NCBI GenBank assembly: GCA_017429695.1
Contig: JAFROK010000005.1
Location: forward strand, 32,033 to 96,032
Source of the DNA: Clostridia bacterium
GTDB taxonomy: Bacteria; Bacillota; Clostridia; Christensenellales; Aristaeellaceae
DNA: 64,000 bases
Direction: 5' to 3'
Shown here: positions 23,045 to 30,365 of the stretch, one piece after another
How the letters are laid out: each line of letters opens with the position of its first letter
Position numbering within the stretch: position 1 is the stretch's first letter
Translations under genes and position numbers: made by a program
The notes under the pieces: generated by a model
What the model saw: only the letters and a program-made list of their open reading frames with translations
The model's database searches: none
What the model was told of the DNA's origin: nothing

Positions 23045-23300
23045 CATAAGAGGCTATGACGAAGACGGAACAGCGGGAGGTCCCCCAGAGAGCCGGGGTT
23101 GGTGGAAACCGGCGGGCTGAAGCTTCATCCCATCGCTTCTGAGCCGGAGATCCGAACGGATATTCTCAGTAGGCGTCTCCCGTGAATGCTGCGTCAAGGC
23201 ATAGGACATGACAGTGTCTGAAGAGGTGCGGAAACGCACAATTTGAGTGGTACCGCGAGCCATCATGGCCCGTCTCAAAGCGAGACGGGCCATTTTATTT
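23045..23300 (+). promoter_or_regulatory. T-box riboswitch
   Basis: Conserved elements occur in order: AGAGAGCC and GGTTGGTGGAAACC (stem I, distal loop), GAGCC, CAGTAGGCGTCTCCCG (stem III region) and the T-box itself GAGTGGTACCGCG (23245-23257). The terminator follows, stem 23265-23276 with 23282-23293 and then TTTTATTTT. Uncharged cognate tRNA would stabilise the antiterminator. The specifier codon cannot be fixed by eye; TTC (23124-23126), CCC and ATC in the segment 23124-23134 are candidates. The controlled gene is an acyl-CoA-synthetase fusion, not an aminoacyl-tRNA synthetase. Confidence 0.92.
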
Positions 23301-23319: not shown

Positions 23320-25590
23320 ATGACAACCCAGACTGATCTCACCCAGCTCAGCGCCGTAGCTTCCCGGCTTCGGGAAATGCGGGAAATCATGGGATGGACC
23401 GTGGAGGAAATGGCTGGAAAGACGGAAGTAACTGCCGAGGAATACCGGCAGTATGAAACCGGCTTAGTGGATATGCCGTTTACCTTCATCCATAAATCTG
23501 CCCAGGCGTTCAATATGGAGCTGACCGAGCTGCTGGAAGGCCACAATGCCCGGCTGTCCTCCTATACGGTGACGCGCCGCGGCAAGGGCGAATCCACGGC
23601 CCGGGAGGAAGGCATCGCTATTTCCAACCTGGCGCCGAAATTCAAGGACAAGATTGCCGAGCCGTATTGGGTTCGTTATGAATATTCCGAGAAGGCGCAG
23701 AACGAGCCGATTCACCAGGTCAGCCACCAGGGGCAGGAATTCGATATCGTCGTATCCGGCCACCTGAAGGTTCAGGTCGGTGAGCATACCGAAGTGCTGG
23801 AGGAAGGCGACAGCATCTATTACAATTCCTCCCTGCCGCATGGTATGATCGCCGTGGACGGGAAGGACTGCGTATTTATTGCGGTCGTGCTGCCCGGGGA
23901 AGAAAAAAAGCCTGAAACGGAAACCGTTGAAATGCCGGCGGGAACTCGGAATGAGTCCCACCTGATCGCGGAGAAGTTTGTGGATGCGACCGAGGACGGG
24001 CAGGGACGGCTGACGGCTATCTCCTTCCCGAACAAGGAAACATTCAACTTCGGCTTCGATATTGTGGACGAAATCGCCCGGAAGTATCCGGACAAGCTGG
24101 CCATGCTCTATGTGGACAAGCATCATGAAGAGCGCCGCTTCACCTTCAAGGATATCAAGGACGCGTCCAACCAGTGCGCCAATTATTTCACTTCCCTGGG
24201 TATCAAACGGGGCGACCGGGTGATGCTGGTGCTGAAGCGGCATTACCAGTTCTGGTTCTGCATGGTAGCGCTGCACAAGATGGGCGCCATCGCGATCCCG
24301 GCGACCAACCAGCTGAAGGAACATGATTTTGAATACCGCTTCAAGGCGGCCGGCGTGAAGGCCCTGATCTGCACCGCGGACGGGGATACCGCCGAGATTG
24401 CCGAACGGGCGGCAGCCAACTGCCCCACCGTCCAGACCCTGATCATGGTCAACGGCGAGCGGGAAGGATGGCATAACCTGAACGAGGAATATCCGCTGTT
24501 TACCCGCCGCTACCGCCGCCCGGAGAACGCTTCCTGCGGCGACGAACCGGCCCTGATGTTCTTTACCTCCGGCACGACCGGCAATCCGAAGATGGCGCAG
24601 CACAAGCACACCTATGCCCTCGGCCATTACGTGACCGCCAAATACTGGCACTGCTGCGAACGGGACGGCCTGCACCTGACGATCTCCGATACCGGCTGGG
24701 GCAAATCCCTCTGGGGCAAGCTGTACGGCCAGTGGATGTGCGAAGGCGCGGTGTTTGTTTACGACTTTGACAAGTTTGACGCAGCGGACATCCTGCCGAT
24801 GTTCAAAAAGTACAATATCACCACCTTCTGCGCGCCGCCCACGATGCTGCGGATGTTCATCAAGGTGGACCTGGCCAACTACGACCTGTCCTCCATCCAT
24901 CACATGACCACTGCCGGCGAAGCGCTGAATCCCGAAGTATACCGTCAGTTCGAGAAGGCGACCGGCCTGAAGATCATGGAAGGCTTCGGACAGACCGAGA
25001 CGACGCTGACCATCGGCAACCTGTACGGCACGACGCCGAAGATCGGCTCCATGGGCAAGGCGAACCCGCAGTACGACGTGGACATCGTGGATCACGACGG
25101 CAACCCTGTTGCGAACGGTGAGGTCGGCGAAATCGTAATCCATACCGACAAAAATACCCCCTGCGGACTGTACAGGGAGTATTACCTGGACGAGGAAAAG
25201 ACAAAGGAAGCCTGGCACGACGGTATGTACCATACCGGCGATACCGCCTGGCGGGATGAGGACGGCTATTTCTGGTATGTCAGCCGGATCGATGATGTGA
25301 TCAAGTCTTCCGGCTACCGGATCGGGCCGTTTGAAATCGAAAGCGTGATTATGGAACTGCCCTACGTGCTGGAATGCGGCGTGTCCGCCGAACCGGATGA
25401 GATCCGCGGGCAGATCGTCAAGGCCTCCATCGTGCTGACCAAGGGCACAGAAGGAACCGAGGAACTGAAAAAGGAAATCCAGATGTACGTCAAGGAGCAC
25501 ACCGCTCCCTACAAGTATCCGCGGAAGATTGTCTTCCGGGATGAACTGCCCAAGACAATTTCGGGCAAGATCCAGCGGAACCTGCTGTAA
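23320..25590 (+). CDS. XRE-cupin-AMP-binding (acyl-CoA synthetase) fusion protein
   Basis: 756 residues in three modules: an XRE-type helix-turn-helix (about 8-65, with MGWTVEEMAGKTEVTAEEYR), a cupin barrel (about 120-200, FDIVVSGHLKVQVGEHTEVLEEGDSI split across it) and an adenylate-forming ligase (about 230-756). The ligase has FTSGTTGNPK, GFGQTETT, YHTGDTAWRD and the C-terminal catalytic lysine in TISGKIQRNL. It likely activates a carboxylic acid as an acyl-AMP and then a CoA thioester. The N-terminal modules could sense a metabolite or bind DNA. AGGGAGG precedes the start. T-box control suggests the substrate is linked to an amino acid, for example its oxo- or arylacetic acid. Confidence 0.88.
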   Translation: MTTQTDLTQLSAVASRLREMREIMGWTVEEMAGKTEVTAEEYRQYETGLVDMPFTFIHKSAQAFNMELTELLEGHNARLSSYTVTRRGKGESTAREEGIAISNLAPKFKDKIAEPYWVRYEYSEKAQNEPIHQVSHQGQEFDIVVSGHLKVQVGEHTEVLEEGDSIYYNSSLPHGMIAVDGKDCVFIAVVLPGEEKKPETETVEMPAGTRNESHLIAEKFVDATEDGQGRLTAISFPNKETFNFGFDIVDEIARKYPDKLAMLYVDKHHEERRFTFKDIKDASNQCANYFTSLGIKRGDRVMLVLKRHYQFWFCMVALHKMGAIAIPATNQLKEHDFEYRFKAAGVKALICTADGDTAEIAERAAANCPTVQTLIMVNGEREGWHNLNEEYPLFTRRYRRPENASCGDEPALMFFTSGTTGNPKMAQHKHTYALGHYVTAKYWHCCERDGLHLTISDTGWGKSLWGKLYGQWMCEGAVFVYDFDKFDAADILPMFKKYNITTFCAPPTMLRMFIKVDLANYDLSSIHHMTTAGEALNPEVYRQFEKATGLKIMEGFGQTETTLTIGNLYGTTPKIGSMGKANPQYDVDIVDHDGNPVANGEVGEIVIHTDKNTPCGLYREYYLDEEKTKEAWHDGMYHTGDTAWRDEDGYFWYVSRIDDVIKSSGYRIGPFEIESVIMELPYVLECGVSAEPDEIRGQIVKASIVLTKGTEGTEELKKEIQMYVKEHTAPYKYPRKIVFRDELPKTISGKIQRNLL

Positions 25591-26660: not shown

Positions 26661-26691
26661 ATACCTATCGCATACAGGAGGGAAAAACAGC

Positions 26692-27753
26692 ATGGAACTG
26701 GAACAGGCATACCGGGAGATTGAAACAAGGCTGGACAGAATCGATTTTTCATTCCTCTTTCACGGGTTTCACCGCTTTCCCTTCGCCCTGTACAATGAAA
26801 CACAGGCGTATATGGACGGCCGGTATTTTGATAAACCGGATAACTTCCTGGGCAGTACATCGATTCGGTATAACGGGAAGGAAACGGCGATATGGAATCT
26901 GTCCGATCATCTGAGCGACCCTGATGTGCTGACGTCGAAAATTGTGCATGAGATGCTGCACGCCTTCCAGAACGACTCCGGTGAAAAACGCTGGGCGGAT
27001 GAACGCGCAGCGCTGGTGAAATACCGCTATGAGGAAGCGAATTTTGCTGCCCGCATGGAGGAGGCCGCCCTGATCCGCGAATGCCTGGCAGGGGAAAAGC
27101 CGGAAGCGTTTGCCCGGCTGCTTCAGCTGCGCAAGGCGCGTATGGAGCGCTTCCCGTTTGTTTATGACTATGAAGCGCGGATTGAGCAGATTGAGGGAAC
27201 GGCCCACTTTGTGGAACATGAAGCGCTGGCCCAGCTGGATCCGGCAAAAGCGGATAAGAGCTGGACCGAAATGATAGAGGGCCTGGCGGATCCTGCACGA
27301 TATTTTCCGGTGCGCGCGGTGACCTACCTGTCCGGCGCAGCCTTTATTGCCTGCCTGCGCAAATACACAGATATGGTGACTGATGAATTCAGTGATACGC
27401 CCTTTGCCATTGCGGCGATTGCGGATGCAGCACCATGTGAAATACCGAAGCACAACGCGCGGGTAGCGGAATGCATGGCAGAGTGGAAAGCAAAGCACCG
27501 GGACCTGGTTACCCGGACGCTGGAAAAAGGCGAGATTGTGCTGGAAGGAACATACCGGCTGATCGTGTGGAATGTATATGACGGCACATGGGACGGACAG
27601 TATGCAGTGCTGACATATTTTATCGGATATATAGAGGGGGAGGAACTGCCGGATACGGATGAAAAGCTGTTTGCACAGATGAAAACGCTTAACGGCAATT
27701 TCGTCGCAGAAGTGGATGAAAATCTGCGCCTGACCCGCGTCTGGAGACAGTAA
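26692..27753 (+). CDS. HExxH-motif (zincin-like) protein of unknown function
   Basis: 353 residues, soluble, no signal peptide. SKIVHEMLHAFQNDSGE (about residues 84-100) carries the HExxH motif of zinc metallopeptidases. A later EGTAHFVEHEALAQ could supply the third ligand in a gluzincin-like arrangement. The N-terminus contains FLFHGFHRFPFALYN. I do not recognise the family by name. CAGGAGGG precedes the ATG at 26692. It is monocistronic with its own promoter, and the metY attenuator follows. Confidence 0.6.
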   Translation: MELEQAYREIETRLDRIDFSFLFHGFHRFPFALYNETQAYMDGRYFDKPDNFLGSTSIRYNGKETAIWNLSDHLSDPDVLTSKIVHEMLHAFQNDSGEKRWADERAALVKYRYEEANFAARMEEAALIRECLAGEKPEAFARLLQLRKARMERFPFVYDYEARIEQIEGTAHFVEHEALAQLDPAKADKSWTEMIEGLADPARYFPVRAVTYLSGAAFIACLRKYTDMVTDEFSDTPFAIAAIADAAPCEIPKHNARVAECMAEWKAKHRDLVTRTLEKGEIVLEGTYRLIVWNVYDGTWDGQYAVLTYFIGYIEGEELPDTDEKLFAQMKTLNGNFVAEVDENLRLTRVWRQ

Positions 27754-27809
27754 ATCGCACCACCGGAAGGGAAAAACAATCCGAATACAATGTTTTTTCA
27801 ATTTCCCTA

Positions 27810-27838
27810 TTGACATACTGGGTGAATGATGGTAAGAT
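27810..27838 (+). promoter_or_regulatory. Promoter of the metY-cysK operon
   Basis: Consensus TTGACA (27810-27815), 17-bp spacer, TAAGAT (27833-27838). The start near 27845 gives a leader of about 250 nt. Confidence 0.8.
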
Positions 27839-27870
27839 GCAGCCAATCAAACGGAAGGAGGCGCGGAAAA

Positions 27871-27993
27871 ATGTTCCGGACCGGACACAGTCAGGCTATG
27901 ATGTGTTGTCGAATGCATATCTCCCGGGCATGGAATATGACAGGAACGTCCGGCATGTTTTCCTTACGCCGCCGGATGATGCGATGTTGCTGA
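27871..27993 (+). CDS. Met/Cys-rich leader peptide of the metY-cysK attenuator
   Basis: A 40-codon ORF too short for routine calling. GGAAGGAGG sits nine bases before the ATG. The peptide has eight Met and four Cys, clustered as MMCCRMH (residues 10-16) and MMRCC directly before the stop. It ends 101 bp before metY and just upstream of a terminator. Its codons 16-23 form the 5' part of competing RNA structures. The composition matches the products of the downstream genes (cysteine and methionine synthesis), as in classical ribosome-mediated attenuation. Not recognised from a named family. Confidence 0.8.
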   Translation: MFRTGHSQAMMCCRMHISRAWNMTGTSGMFSLRRRMMRCC

Positions 27994-28056
27994 TCGGTGT
28001 TCATCCTGATGTCATTTGCCCGGGAGCTTCCAGAAAGCAGATCCCGGTTTTTCTTT
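27916..28056 (+). promoter_or_regulatory. Transcription attenuator (protector hairpin, antiterminator, terminator)
   Basis: Three alternative pairings are visible. A protector hairpin CATAT-c-TCC/GGAATATG (27916-27939) lies in the leader ORF. An antiterminator CTCCCGGGCA (27921-27930) pairs perfectly over 10 bp with TGCCCGGGAG (28017-28026). A terminator CCGGGAGCTT...AAGC-aga-TCCCGG (28020-28047) is followed by TTTTTCTTT. The first and third exclude the second. A ribosome stalled on Met10-Cys13 would block the protector arm and favour read-through. Confidence 0.78.
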
Positions 28057-28094
28057 ACCCCAATAACGGTTAATGATGAAAGGAGAAAATCAAA

Positions 28095-29387
28095 ATGAGT
28101 CAGTATAAATTCGAAACCCTTCAGCTTCACGTAGGACAGGAACAGCCGGATCCCGCAACCGACGCGCGGGCGGTACCGATTTACCAGACGACCTCTTACG
28201 TATTCCGCAACAGCCAGCATGCGGCTGACCGATTCGGCCTGGCGGATGCCGGAAACATCTATGGCCGGCTGACCAACTCCACCCAGGATGTGCTGGAAAA
28301 GCGCATAGCGGCCCTGGAAGGCGGAAGCGCCGCCCTGGCCGTTGCATCCGGCGCCGCGGCGATTACCTATACCATTCAGGCGCTGGCCGCAGACGGCGGA
28401 CATATCGTTGCCCAGAAGACGATTTACGGCGGAAGCTTCAACCTGCTGGCCCATACGCTTCCGCAGTACGGAATTCATACCACCTTCGTGAATGCCCACG
28501 ACCTGAAGGAAGTGGAGAACGCGATTCAGGATGACACCCGGGCCATCTACCTGGAAACGCTGGGAAACCCGAACAGCGATATTCCGGATATTGACACGAT
28601 TGCGGAAATTGCGCACCGGCACGGTCTTCCCCTGGTGATTGACAACACCTTCGGTACACCCTACCTGATCCGGCCGATTGAACACGGCGCGGACATCGTG
28701 GTACATTCCGCCACAAAGTTTATCGGCGGCCACGGCACAACGCTGGGCGGAATCATCGTGGAATCCGGAAAGTTCAACTGGAAGGCCAGCGGCAAGTATC
28801 CGAACATTGCGGCGCCCAACCCGAGCTATCACGGCGTATCCTTCTACGACGTCGTCGGTCCTGCGGCTTTTGTGACCTATATCCGGGCGATCCTGCTGCG
28901 GGATACGGGAGCGACGATCTCTCCGTTCAACGCATTCCTGCTGCTGCAGGGCGTGGAAACCCTGTCCATCCGGCTGGATCGGCACGCAGAGAATACCAAA
29001 AAGGTGGTGGAATACCTGAGCAGCCATCCGCTGGTGGAAAAGGTAAACCATCCCTCTCTTCCGGATCATCCGGACCATGCACTGTATCAGAAGTATTTCC
29101 CGAACGGCGGCGCGTCCATCTTTACCTTCGAGATCAAAGGCGGGCAGAAGGAAGCCTGGGCTTTTATCGACCATCTGGAGATTTTCTCCCTCCTGGCCAA
29201 CGTGGCGGACGTTAAGAGCCTGGTGATCCATCCGGCATCCACCACCCACTCCCAGCTTTCCGAAGAGGAACTGCTGGACCAGGGAATCCGCCGGAACACG
29301 ATCCGGCTTTCCATCGGCACGGAGCATATCGACGATATTATCGCGGATCTGGAAAAAGGATTTGCGGCAGTAAAGGAACTTGAGTAA
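28095..29387 (+). CDS. metY: O-acetylhomoserine aminocarboxypropyltransferase (sulfhydrylase)
   Basis: 430 residues; PLP enzyme that makes homocysteine (or methionine) from O-acetylhomoserine and sulfide (or methanethiol). MSQYKFETLQLHVGQEQPDPA and the long insert SGKFNWKASGKYP are typical of the MetY branch of the Cys/Met-metabolism family. The PLP-binding lysine is Lys208 in VVHSATKFIGGHGT. GGAGAAAATCAAA precedes the ATG. It is the first gene of metY-cysK and lies behind the leader-peptide attenuator. Confidence 0.93.
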   Translation: MSQYKFETLQLHVGQEQPDPATDARAVPIYQTTSYVFRNSQHAADRFGLADAGNIYGRLTNSTQDVLEKRIAALEGGSAALAVASGAAAITYTIQALAADGGHIVAQKTIYGGSFNLLAHTLPQYGIHTTFVNAHDLKEVENAIQDDTRAIYLETLGNPNSDIPDIDTIAEIAHRHGLPLVIDNTFGTPYLIRPIEHGADIVVHSATKFIGGHGTTLGGIIVESGKFNWKASGKYPNIAAPNPSYHGVSFYDVVGPAAFVTYIRAILLRDTGATISPFNAFLLLQGVETLSIRLDRHAENTKKVVEYLSSHPLVEKVNHPSLPDHPDHALYQKYFPNGGASIFTFEIKGGQKEAWAFIDHLEIFSLLANVADVKSLVIHPASTTHSQLSEEELLDQGIRRNTIRLSIGTEHIDDIIADLEKGFAAVKELE

Positions 29388-29432
29388 AATAAAAAACCAA
29401 TCAGAGATGATATGGATAGGGAGGAAACGGAC

Positions 29433-30365
29433 ATGGCAAATATTTATAAGGGAACCCTGGGACTGATCGGAAATACACCCCTGGTGGAAGTAACCAATAT
29501 CGAAAAGGAACTGGGACTGGAAGCCACCGTCCTGGTGAAACTGGAATACTTCAATCCCGCTGGAAGCGTGAAAGACCGGATTGCCAAAGCGATGATTGAA
29601 GACGCGGAAGCGAAAGGCCTGCTGAAGGAAGGCTCCGTCATTATTGAGCCGACCAGCGGAAACACCGGTATCGGACTGGCTTCCATTGCCGCGGCCAAGG
29701 GCTACCGCATTATCCTGACCATGCCGGAAACCATGAGCGTGGAACGCCGGAACATCCTGAAAGCTTACGGCGCGGAGCTGGTGCTGACGGAAGGCGCAAA
29801 GGGCATGAAGGGCGCGATTGCCAAGGCGGAGGAGCTGGCGAAGGAAATCTCGGGCAGCTTTATTCCGGGACAGTTTGTGAATCCCGCCAACCCGGCAATC
29901 CATAAGGCGACCACAGGACCCGAAATCTGGAAGGATACAGACGGCAAGGTGGATATCTTCATCGCAGGCGTCGGAACCGGCGGCACGGTGACCGGAACCG
30001 GCGAATACCTGAAGGAGCAGAACCCGGCCGTGAAAGTGGTGGCCCTGGAGCCGGAAGATTCGCCTGTGCTTTCCGAAGGCCGGTCCGGCGCGCATAAGAT
30101 TCAGGGAATCGGCGCCGGGTTTGTGCCGGATGTGCTGAATACGAAGGTCTATGATGAGATCTTCAAGGCGTCCAACGCGGATGCTTTTGCAACGGCCAAG
30201 CTGCTGGCCCGGAAGGAAGGTATCTCCGTGGGTATCTCTTCCGGAGCCGCGTTGTTCGGCGCGATTCAGCTGGCCAAGCGGCCTGAGAACAAGGGCAAAG
30301 TGATTGTTGCCCTGCTTCCGGACAGCGGCGACCGGTACTACTCCACCGCTCTGTTTACGGAATAA
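29433..30365 (+). CDS. cysK: Cysteine synthase A
   Basis: 310 residues; O-acetylserine sulfhydrylase that makes cysteine using PLP. Lys47 in NPAGSVKDR binds [14 protein letters not shown] binds the substrate carboxylate, and [12 protein letters not shown] the PLP phosphate. The C-terminus [14 protein letters not shown] is typical of CysK. The start at 29433 follows ATAGGGAGG with good spacing. It is cotranscribed with metY (45 bp gap) and followed by a strong terminator. Confidence 0.95.

Follow-up and report, generated by a model that had tools for sequence, protein, structure and literature searches.

The window examined here, i.e., the whole stretch of 64,000 nucleotides analysed from the genome of a Clostridia bacterium (G000), carries metY and cysK one behind the other and, in front of them, a short ORF rich in methionine and cysteine. 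The components of the region, all on the forward strand, are the following.

27806..27822 (+): operator-like palindrome CCTATTGACATACTGGG, spanning the -35 box, with 2 mismatches vs CCTATTGACNNNGTAGG (from the alignment of 17 loci)
27810..27838 (+): sigma-70-type promoter, a pattern match only (-35 TTGACA 27810-27815, -10 TAAGAT 27833-27838, spacer 17)
27855..27861 (+): Shine-Dalgarno sequence of the leader, AAGGAGG, read from the sequence
27871..27993 (+): leader ORF, ATG at 27871, TGA to 27993, 40 codons, MFRTGHSQAMMCCRMHISRAWNMTGTSGMFSLRRRMMRCC
27907..27915 (+): core codons UGU CGA AUG (Cys-Arg-Met), proposed site of Cys sensing
27921..27930 (+): antiterminator A-arm CTCCCGGGCA (from pairing and covariation)
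27937..27942 (+): A2, ATGACA, position of the second antiterminator arm (from covariation with B2 in relatives)
27947..27978 (+): inner hairpin X:Y, CGTCCGGC / GCCGGATG (predicted fold of the window element)
28010..28015 (+): B2, TGTCAT, partner position of A2 (from covariation in relatives; another pairing wins in the window fold)
28017..28026 (+): B-arm TGCCCGGGAG, common to antiterminator and terminator
28020..28055 (+): intrinsic terminator, CCGGGA 28020-28025 / TCCCGG 28042-28047, then TTTTTCTT (C-arm and T-run recur in the alignments)
28095..29387 (+): metY, O-acetylhomoserine/O-acetylserine sulfhydrylase (TIGR01326, 626 bits, cut-off 495)
29430..30365 (+): cysK, cysteine synthase A (TIGR01139, 451 bits, cut-off 351), with an in-frame ATG also at 29412

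The initial annotation had already described the promoter, the Shine-Dalgarno sequence, the 40-codon ORF, a 10-bp pairing and the terminator, all of which were recovered in a base-by-base check, and its naming of metY-cysK behind the leader is borne out by the curated cut-offs. The leader ORF encodes 8 Met and 4 Cys, codons 10-13 being Met-Met-Cys-Cys, and the A-arm is perfectly complementary to the B-arm. A TG precedes the -10 box of the putative promoter, which gives 10/12 promoter matches; the match alone is weak because the number of promoter-like sites in the scan (4 per 4.5 kb) is close to that of shuffles (3.0+-1.7). The terminator was absent from the pattern-scan list because the loop limit of the scan was 8 and the terminator loop has 16.

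No family was found for the leader peptide in NCBIfam or Pfam at E<=1. Rfam had no match for the window or for five relatives at the gathering score, nor for positions 27700-28120 at E<=5, and the covariance models of the T-box (RF00230) and of the SAM riboswitch (RF00162) had no match in the leader region. Elsewhere in the window a T-box-like match of 70.4 bits, below the gathering score of 93, lies at 23047-23280 (G000:C1:55079-55312) and precedes a 756-aa ORF at 23320 that by eye resembles an XRE-domain AMP ligase. The ORF upstream of the leader (26683-27750) matched nothing in NCBIfam at E<=1 and nothing significantly in Pfam.

Spread of the leader and the genes behind it

Searching with the leader peptide recovered homologues within the genus (E 5e-9 in the best other genome) and in one other genus (G054). 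Seventeen loci could be aligned. Their common features are a promoter containing CCTATTGACATAGTAGG or a close variant of it, a Shine-Dalgarno sequence, TGTCGAATGNNNNTCTCCCGGGCATG or a close variant and, ~85 nt after the latter, TGCCCGGGAG followed by a terminator. The core pattern, with up to 2 mismatches, was present in 29/45 genomes of the genus (own genome included; 0/45 for a reversed-pattern control) and in 14/150 genomes of a family sample that overlaps the genus sample. A covariance model (R1) matched 36/250 genomes of the family, three of them only at E 0.02-0.1, and 12/297 of the order sample, i.e., 4 of our own genus, 5 of other families (E<=5e-6) and 3 near chance. The matches at E 0.02-0.1 (G115, G166 and G304 in the family, G093, G115 and G391 in the order) were treated as chance.

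Scanning the GTDB representatives with the core pattern gave at least 118 stretches, some of them from the window's own genus. Among the matches listed (80 titles) there were 29 Lachnospiraceae, 6 Ruminococcaceae, 5 Saccharofermentans, one spirochaete (L191, dropped) and one Coriobacteriaceae MAG (L224), and most of the other titles were Clostridia, Clostridiales or related genera; this taxonomy is that of the titles, which for MAGs are not GTDB names. A second model (R2) found the leader in 13/391 genomes of the class (own included) and in 2/299 of the phylum, one of which is again our own. The leader family extends to other orders and to at least one further class, patchily, and many genomes are without a match. 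The viral scan gave one match (L280), dropped for having neither start nor context.

The counts that follow come from two sets. The class set consists of 119 loci from the GTDB pattern and viral scans, with L183, L191, L277 and L280 dropped throughout. Also left out were L187 and L209 (A:B covariation, protector test and the recount of Cys and overlap), L224 and L271 (target count), these four together (A2:B2 and frame counts; in the frame count also two more loci too near the stretch end) or the four with L225 (fold and X:Y analysis). The order set is made up of 70 distinct leaders of 101, with L107 (G391, lacking the core) and L111 (G175, lacking the 5' part) left out, and contains 69 in the fold and X:Y analysis. 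The two sets are not independent, since eight class loci also occur as leaders of the order set; within the class set four further pairs are near-identical, and CGA-ATG is forced by the search pattern.

Judging from their sequences, the downstream genes would mainly serve the synthesis or uptake of cysteine and methionine, namely metY-cysK and MetQ-type or cystine-type transporters. At 113 class loci the first downstream ORF resembled metY (58), MetQ (18), an amino acid binding protein (10) or an amino acid ABC permease (3) and, once each, cysK, a PepT-like protein and another binding protein; 9 loci matched no assignment and 12 had no ORF of 80 aa in the stretch. By eye, the unassigned target of L209 resembles MetF, that of L182 MetQ, and those of L181 and L253 the GST-type protein of L157; L194 and some other unmatched targets show no obvious link. 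At the order level the targets were metY-cysK, a cystine-type ABC transporter, MetQ/N/I, a PepT-like protein with cysteine synthase, and ThiF-rhodanese. MetN, MetQ, MetI and the permease score below the NCBI curated cut-offs, so we infer their substrates.

Reading frame, control codons and pairing arms

A Shine-Dalgarno sequence with a start codon open through the core was found in frame 0 in 92/109 class and 63/70 order leaders, vs 4 and 5 leaders, respectively, for the other two frames summed. The start-to-core distance is 15-54 nt, always a multiple of three because of the way the count was made. The leader ORF, with a Shine-Dalgarno sequence of its own, appears to be under selection as a reading frame, as befits an attenuator. 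Its frame preference and Shine-Dalgarno sequence, together with Cys codons at one place in 110/115 leaders and the lack of an Rfam match for the window, the leader region or five relatives, make it very improbable that we are dealing with a riboswitch or protein-binding RNA whose ORF has no role, a reading to which the long invariant nucleotide blocks and the covarying helices would otherwise lend themselves.

At the core, Cys is found in 65/70 leaders of the order set (all UGU), Arg in 70/70 (CGA 69, AGA 1) and Met in 70/70, and the codons before the core are Cys at -1 in 41/70 and Met at -2 in 45/70. Taking positions -1 and 0 together, Cys is present in 69/70 order leaders (L105 has no Cys at the core) and in 110/115 of the class set (the exceptions are L181, L187, L209, L231 and L248), the background share of Cys in the predicted downstream ORFs being 0.6%; Met at -2 occurs in 62/115. 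A leader from another class, L301, also located before metY (MTGFSKLCCCCRM), has four consecutive Cys codons before Arg-Met. Cysteine control codons at a conserved place, in front of targets predicted to belong to the matching pathway, are a second mark of an attenuator. The Met/Cys clusters emphasised in the initial annotation fared unequally, since the Cys codons near the core are conserved and the C-terminal MMRCC is mostly not: 32/115 class ORFs end in Arg-Cys, and in 13 others it lies among the last four residues. The hexamer CGATGT (Arg-Cys; 27982-27987 in the window) is found at the end of the leader ORF in 41/115 class leaders. In one leader (L287, core at ~1500, reverse strand) the ORF stops right after Cys-Cys-Arg-Met-Arg, with A-arm, B-arm and terminator remaining; translation may be needed no further than the core, or a single base of the MAG may be in error.

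CGA is the rarest Arg codon, accounting for 31/1192 in the window ORFs of >=300 aa (overlapping frames included) and for 62/1768 Arg codons in the class-level target genes. It is nevertheless the codon of 88/89 leaders from searches that tolerate changes (69/70 order leaders and 19/19 class model matches outside G000), counts that lean towards CGA because the searches were seeded with CGA-bearing leaders. The class model matches keep CGA-ATG even where the A-arm differs (L297-L300), and the only other Arg codon in the order set, the AGA of L155, keeps the amino acid. A search for tRNA-Arg(ACG), which might have accounted for CGA, in our own genome (G000) gave 4 matches, each with 3 mismatches, vs 9 for the reversed control. 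That CGA and the arms hardly vary is more than a simple attenuator would require and counts against the attenuator reading.

Every one of the 41 leaders in the first alignment pairs at A:B (100% of cells), two with a G-C to A-U double change, and 7/9 pairs do not change at all. Among the 113 class leaders, covariation is seen in the pairs next to the forced pattern. Pair 1 was G-C in 90, A-U in 11 and G-U in 10, pair 3 was A-U in 77, U-A in 9 and G-C in 6, and pair 4 was Watson-Crick in 40 vs 22.7; none of 2000 shuffles reached the Watson-Crick counts of these three pairs, a figure that overstates significance because related sequences are not independent. Without the 8 loci shared with the order set (105 loci) the counts were 93 vs 76.0, 85 vs 62.1 and 37 vs 20.4 (0/2000 each). 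In the 113 leaders no signal came from pairs 5 and 6. Pair 2, like the innermost seven pairs, hardly varies and is therefore uninformative. The conservation of Cys codons and of complementarity in relatives, which the initial annotation had proposed as a test, was thus found, compensatory changes included.

The antiterminator of the relatives is larger than 10 bp. A second helix, A2:B2, joins ATGRCN of the ORF with NGYCAT just before the B-arm, and 111/179 leaders have CA as expected (2 of 181 leaders were lost for want of a recognisable B-arm, and the 68 of the remaining 179 that lack this CA were excluded); this requirement forces the pairing at those two columns, whereas the covarying columns are free of it. 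At position 4 there is covariation in both sets (0/2000 shuffles). Position 6, a third codon position, is Watson-Crick in 28/37 of the order set vs 11.4+-2.6 (0/2000), and in only 19/74 of the class set vs 15.5+-3.1, which 325/2000 shuffles reach. In the window itself ATGACA (27937-27942) could pair with TGTCAT (28010-28015); its predicted fold prefers CAGGA (27941-27945) with TCCTG (28004-28008), beside A:B and X:Y. The X:Y pairing lies above its own codon shuffles in 90/110 class and 62/69 order leaders, a count that may include a few A2:B2 pairs. For the whole structure, an alignment of 79 leaders contains 73 double-change cells vs 28.9+-4.6 when shuffled (0/500) and 19-34 in slid versions. 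Counted by pairs, 11 have a double change, a number that 85/500 shuffles also reach. As drawn from these pairings, the antiterminator would be exclusive with the intrinsic terminator via the shared B-arm, which is the third mark of an attenuator.

A protector hairpin inside the ORF had also been part of the initial annotation, and the data do not bear it out as a general feature. The pairing CGAATGC:GCGTTCG is present in a subset only; in another register (ATGCTGA:TCGGCAT) it occurs before cystine-type transporters. Across 113 class leaders the protector has a mean of 6.29 expected pairs vs 4.27 in codon shuffles, is above its own shuffle mean in 77/113 and reaches p<0.05 in 13/113, with A-arm pairing of 0.63 vs 0.59. 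In the window copy its pairing score is 0.02, and the predicted 5' fold pairs the A-arm with the start of the ORF.

Proposed response to cysteine supply

We consider it highly likely, from the sequence features described, that the element is a cysteine-sensing, ribosome-mediated transcription attenuator and a member of a class-wide family. With UGU (27907-27909) in the A site, the leading edge of the ribosome should lie ~13 nt downstream, and the distance from the first U of this codon to the beginning of the A-arm is 14 nt. When Cys-tRNA is short, the ribosome would halt with UGU (27907) in the A site and its edge just before the A-arm at 27921, the antiterminator could form and RNA polymerase would continue into metY-cysK. 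With ample Cys-tRNA the ribosome would go on to cover the A-arm, its progress possibly slowed by the rare CGA codon; A:B could then not form in time and the terminator would. Masking of the A-arm by the moving ribosome would be a simpler route to termination than a protector.

Folding predictions agree with the stalled state to a large extent. From the edge of the stalled ribosome onward, A:B is predicted to form in 63/70 leaders, and in 101/110 and 62/69 in a second analysis; counted against the model, the terminator still forms in 11/70, and in 19/110 and 15/69, respectively. Also to be counted against it, equilibrium folding of the ribosome-free RNA favours A:B in 46/70 and the terminator in 24/70, so that switching off would have to come from the ribosome on the A-arm, from other, fast-folding hairpins, or from both.

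The initial annotation left the choice between cysteine and methionine undecided. The cysteine half holds, with Cys codons fixed in place, and the methionine half is weaker, Met being common at -2 and not fixed. Methionine might be sensed besides, or instead of, cysteine, given Met at +2 in 70/70 order leaders (pattern-forced in the class set), its frequency at -2 (45/70 and 62/115) and the presence of metY and MetQ-type genes among the targets. We regard this as unlikely, as a ribosome stalled with AUG (+2) in its A site would already occupy the beginning of the A-arm and obstruct the antiterminator, neither -2 nor -3 has a fixed Met, and a SAM riboswitch is present in 20/21 genomes of the genus.

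Since CGA is retained next to the Cys codon, the ribosome may make a timed pause while it lies over the A-arm. We advance tentatively, and with more doubt than confidence, that UGU-CGA-AUG is a two-stage device in which the Cys codon senses supply and CGA acts as a brake that parks the fed ribosome on the A-arm, leading to the terminator. If this were true, the default "off" state would be set by slow decoding, not by a protector hairpin, and would have been kept far beyond the genus. A different explanation for the constancy of the core would be an arrest of the ribosome by the nascent Cys-Arg-Met peptide at high levels of Cys, Met or SAM; the arrested ribosome would cover the A-arm and the terminator would form. 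The invariant Arg-Met (70/70) with CGA in 69/70 of the order set, the persistence of CGAATG in class matches with a changed A-arm (L297-L300) and the Arg still encoded by AGA in L155 speak for such an arrest. Yet the residues before the Cys codons are variable, unlike those of arrest peptides, and it is the codon CGA that is kept, not only the amino acid, all of which makes nascent-peptide arrest quite improbable to us.

The proposed attenuator seems to be under a second control at its promoter. CCTA-N7-11-TAGG occurs within 160 nt upstream of 73/111 class and 47/70 order leaders, and CCTATTGACATAGTAGG is found exactly at two further sites of our own genome. One precedes an SGNH-like hydrolase (by eye) followed by a gene for an Rrf2 regulator (TIGR00738, 101 bits, cut-off 73; the CymR and IscR models are below their cut-offs) and the other an SDF-family symporter. 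With 2 mismatches allowed the genome count is 8 vs 42 for the reversed control, so only the exact sites mean much. The operator is probably read by an Rrf2-type, CymR-like repressor. Between the exact copy and the SDF-family symporter (G000:C56:77650-77784; L303, L310) there is a 25-codon Met/Cys-rich ORF, MMKNRFMCMQCMSMRRPAFMPSLPA, followed up by no convincing relative in 45 genomes of the genus; by eye, a hairpin resembling a terminator is also present, and the region may be another Cys/Met leader, unrelated to the first. A subfamily of leaders ends in ...LR(S/T)NFRC/GRM before the core (L175, L177, L207, L237, L252, L254, L259, L272, L279); in both members whose upstream region was inspected (L177 and L254), the TATTGAC operator is absent and an AACCAA...TTGGTT repeat takes its place.

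Comparison with known systems

Firmicutes are usually described as controlling their sulfur genes by S-box, T-box and CymR. The initial annotation knew of no named Firmicute leader of this kind, and our searches of open papers found no such leader in Clostridia either. Many Clostridia of gut and rumen seem to regulate the synthesis and uptake of cysteine by a leader peptide attenuator of the trp type. The conserved leader sequence could be annotated automatically, which would allow cysteine regulation to be read from uncultured genomes and would mark uncharacterised neighbour genes as likely Cys-related; it also raises the question of why the rarest Arg codon is found in 88/89 leaders.

With the trp/his-type attenuators of Proteobacteria the window leader shares the logic of control codon, antiterminator and terminator. 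Their sequences drift more freely, whereas here the core and the arms are nearly fixed far beyond the genus, and the rare CGA beside the control codon is a feature of the window family in contrast to them. The Cys T-box and S-box leaders of Firmicutes (mentioned in PMC1262725) also attenuate amino acid and sulfur genes, and differ in that the window leader is without a T-box or SAM motif. Both types are at home in the genus, with T-box matches in 21/21 genomes (above the cut-off in 17) and SAM riboswitches in 20/21, and the leader system therefore coexists with them. The CymR regulon of Clostridium acetobutylicum, in which an Rrf2-type repressor is predicted to act on cysK and cystine-uptake genes, concerns the same pathway; there the repressor acts on DNA, and the passages on this regulon do not describe a leader peptide (PMC3828012).

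Cysteine-coding leaders are found before cys or cbs genes in the Actinobacteria Mycobacterium, Propionibacterium and Bifidobacterium and are like the window leader in this respect (PMC1262725). They differ in having the Cys run near the stop and, as described, no conserved terminator hairpin, Rho being proposed (PMC1262725). The window family has Cys in the core and a terminator and does not fit this mycobacterial type. The window copy also has two Cys at the end of its ORF. Cysteine-responsive leaders have been the subject of later experimental work in mycobacteria.

The uORFC-8-2 motif of cysS in Rhodobacterales resembles the window leader in its leader ORF with conserved Cys codons, its stems and its terminal U-run, and stalling for lack of Cys-tRNA has been proposed for it (PMC8632094). 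It belongs to Alphaproteobacteria, is located exclusively before cysS and has tandem Cys codons in which UGC dominates; the description of the motif mentions neither a Cys-Arg-Met core nor metY, cysK or transporter targets (PMC8632094). Compared by that description only, uORFC-8-2 lies before cysS with tandem Cys at ~14-15, and the window leader, which lies before metY with its Cys at codons 12-13, does not fit that motif.
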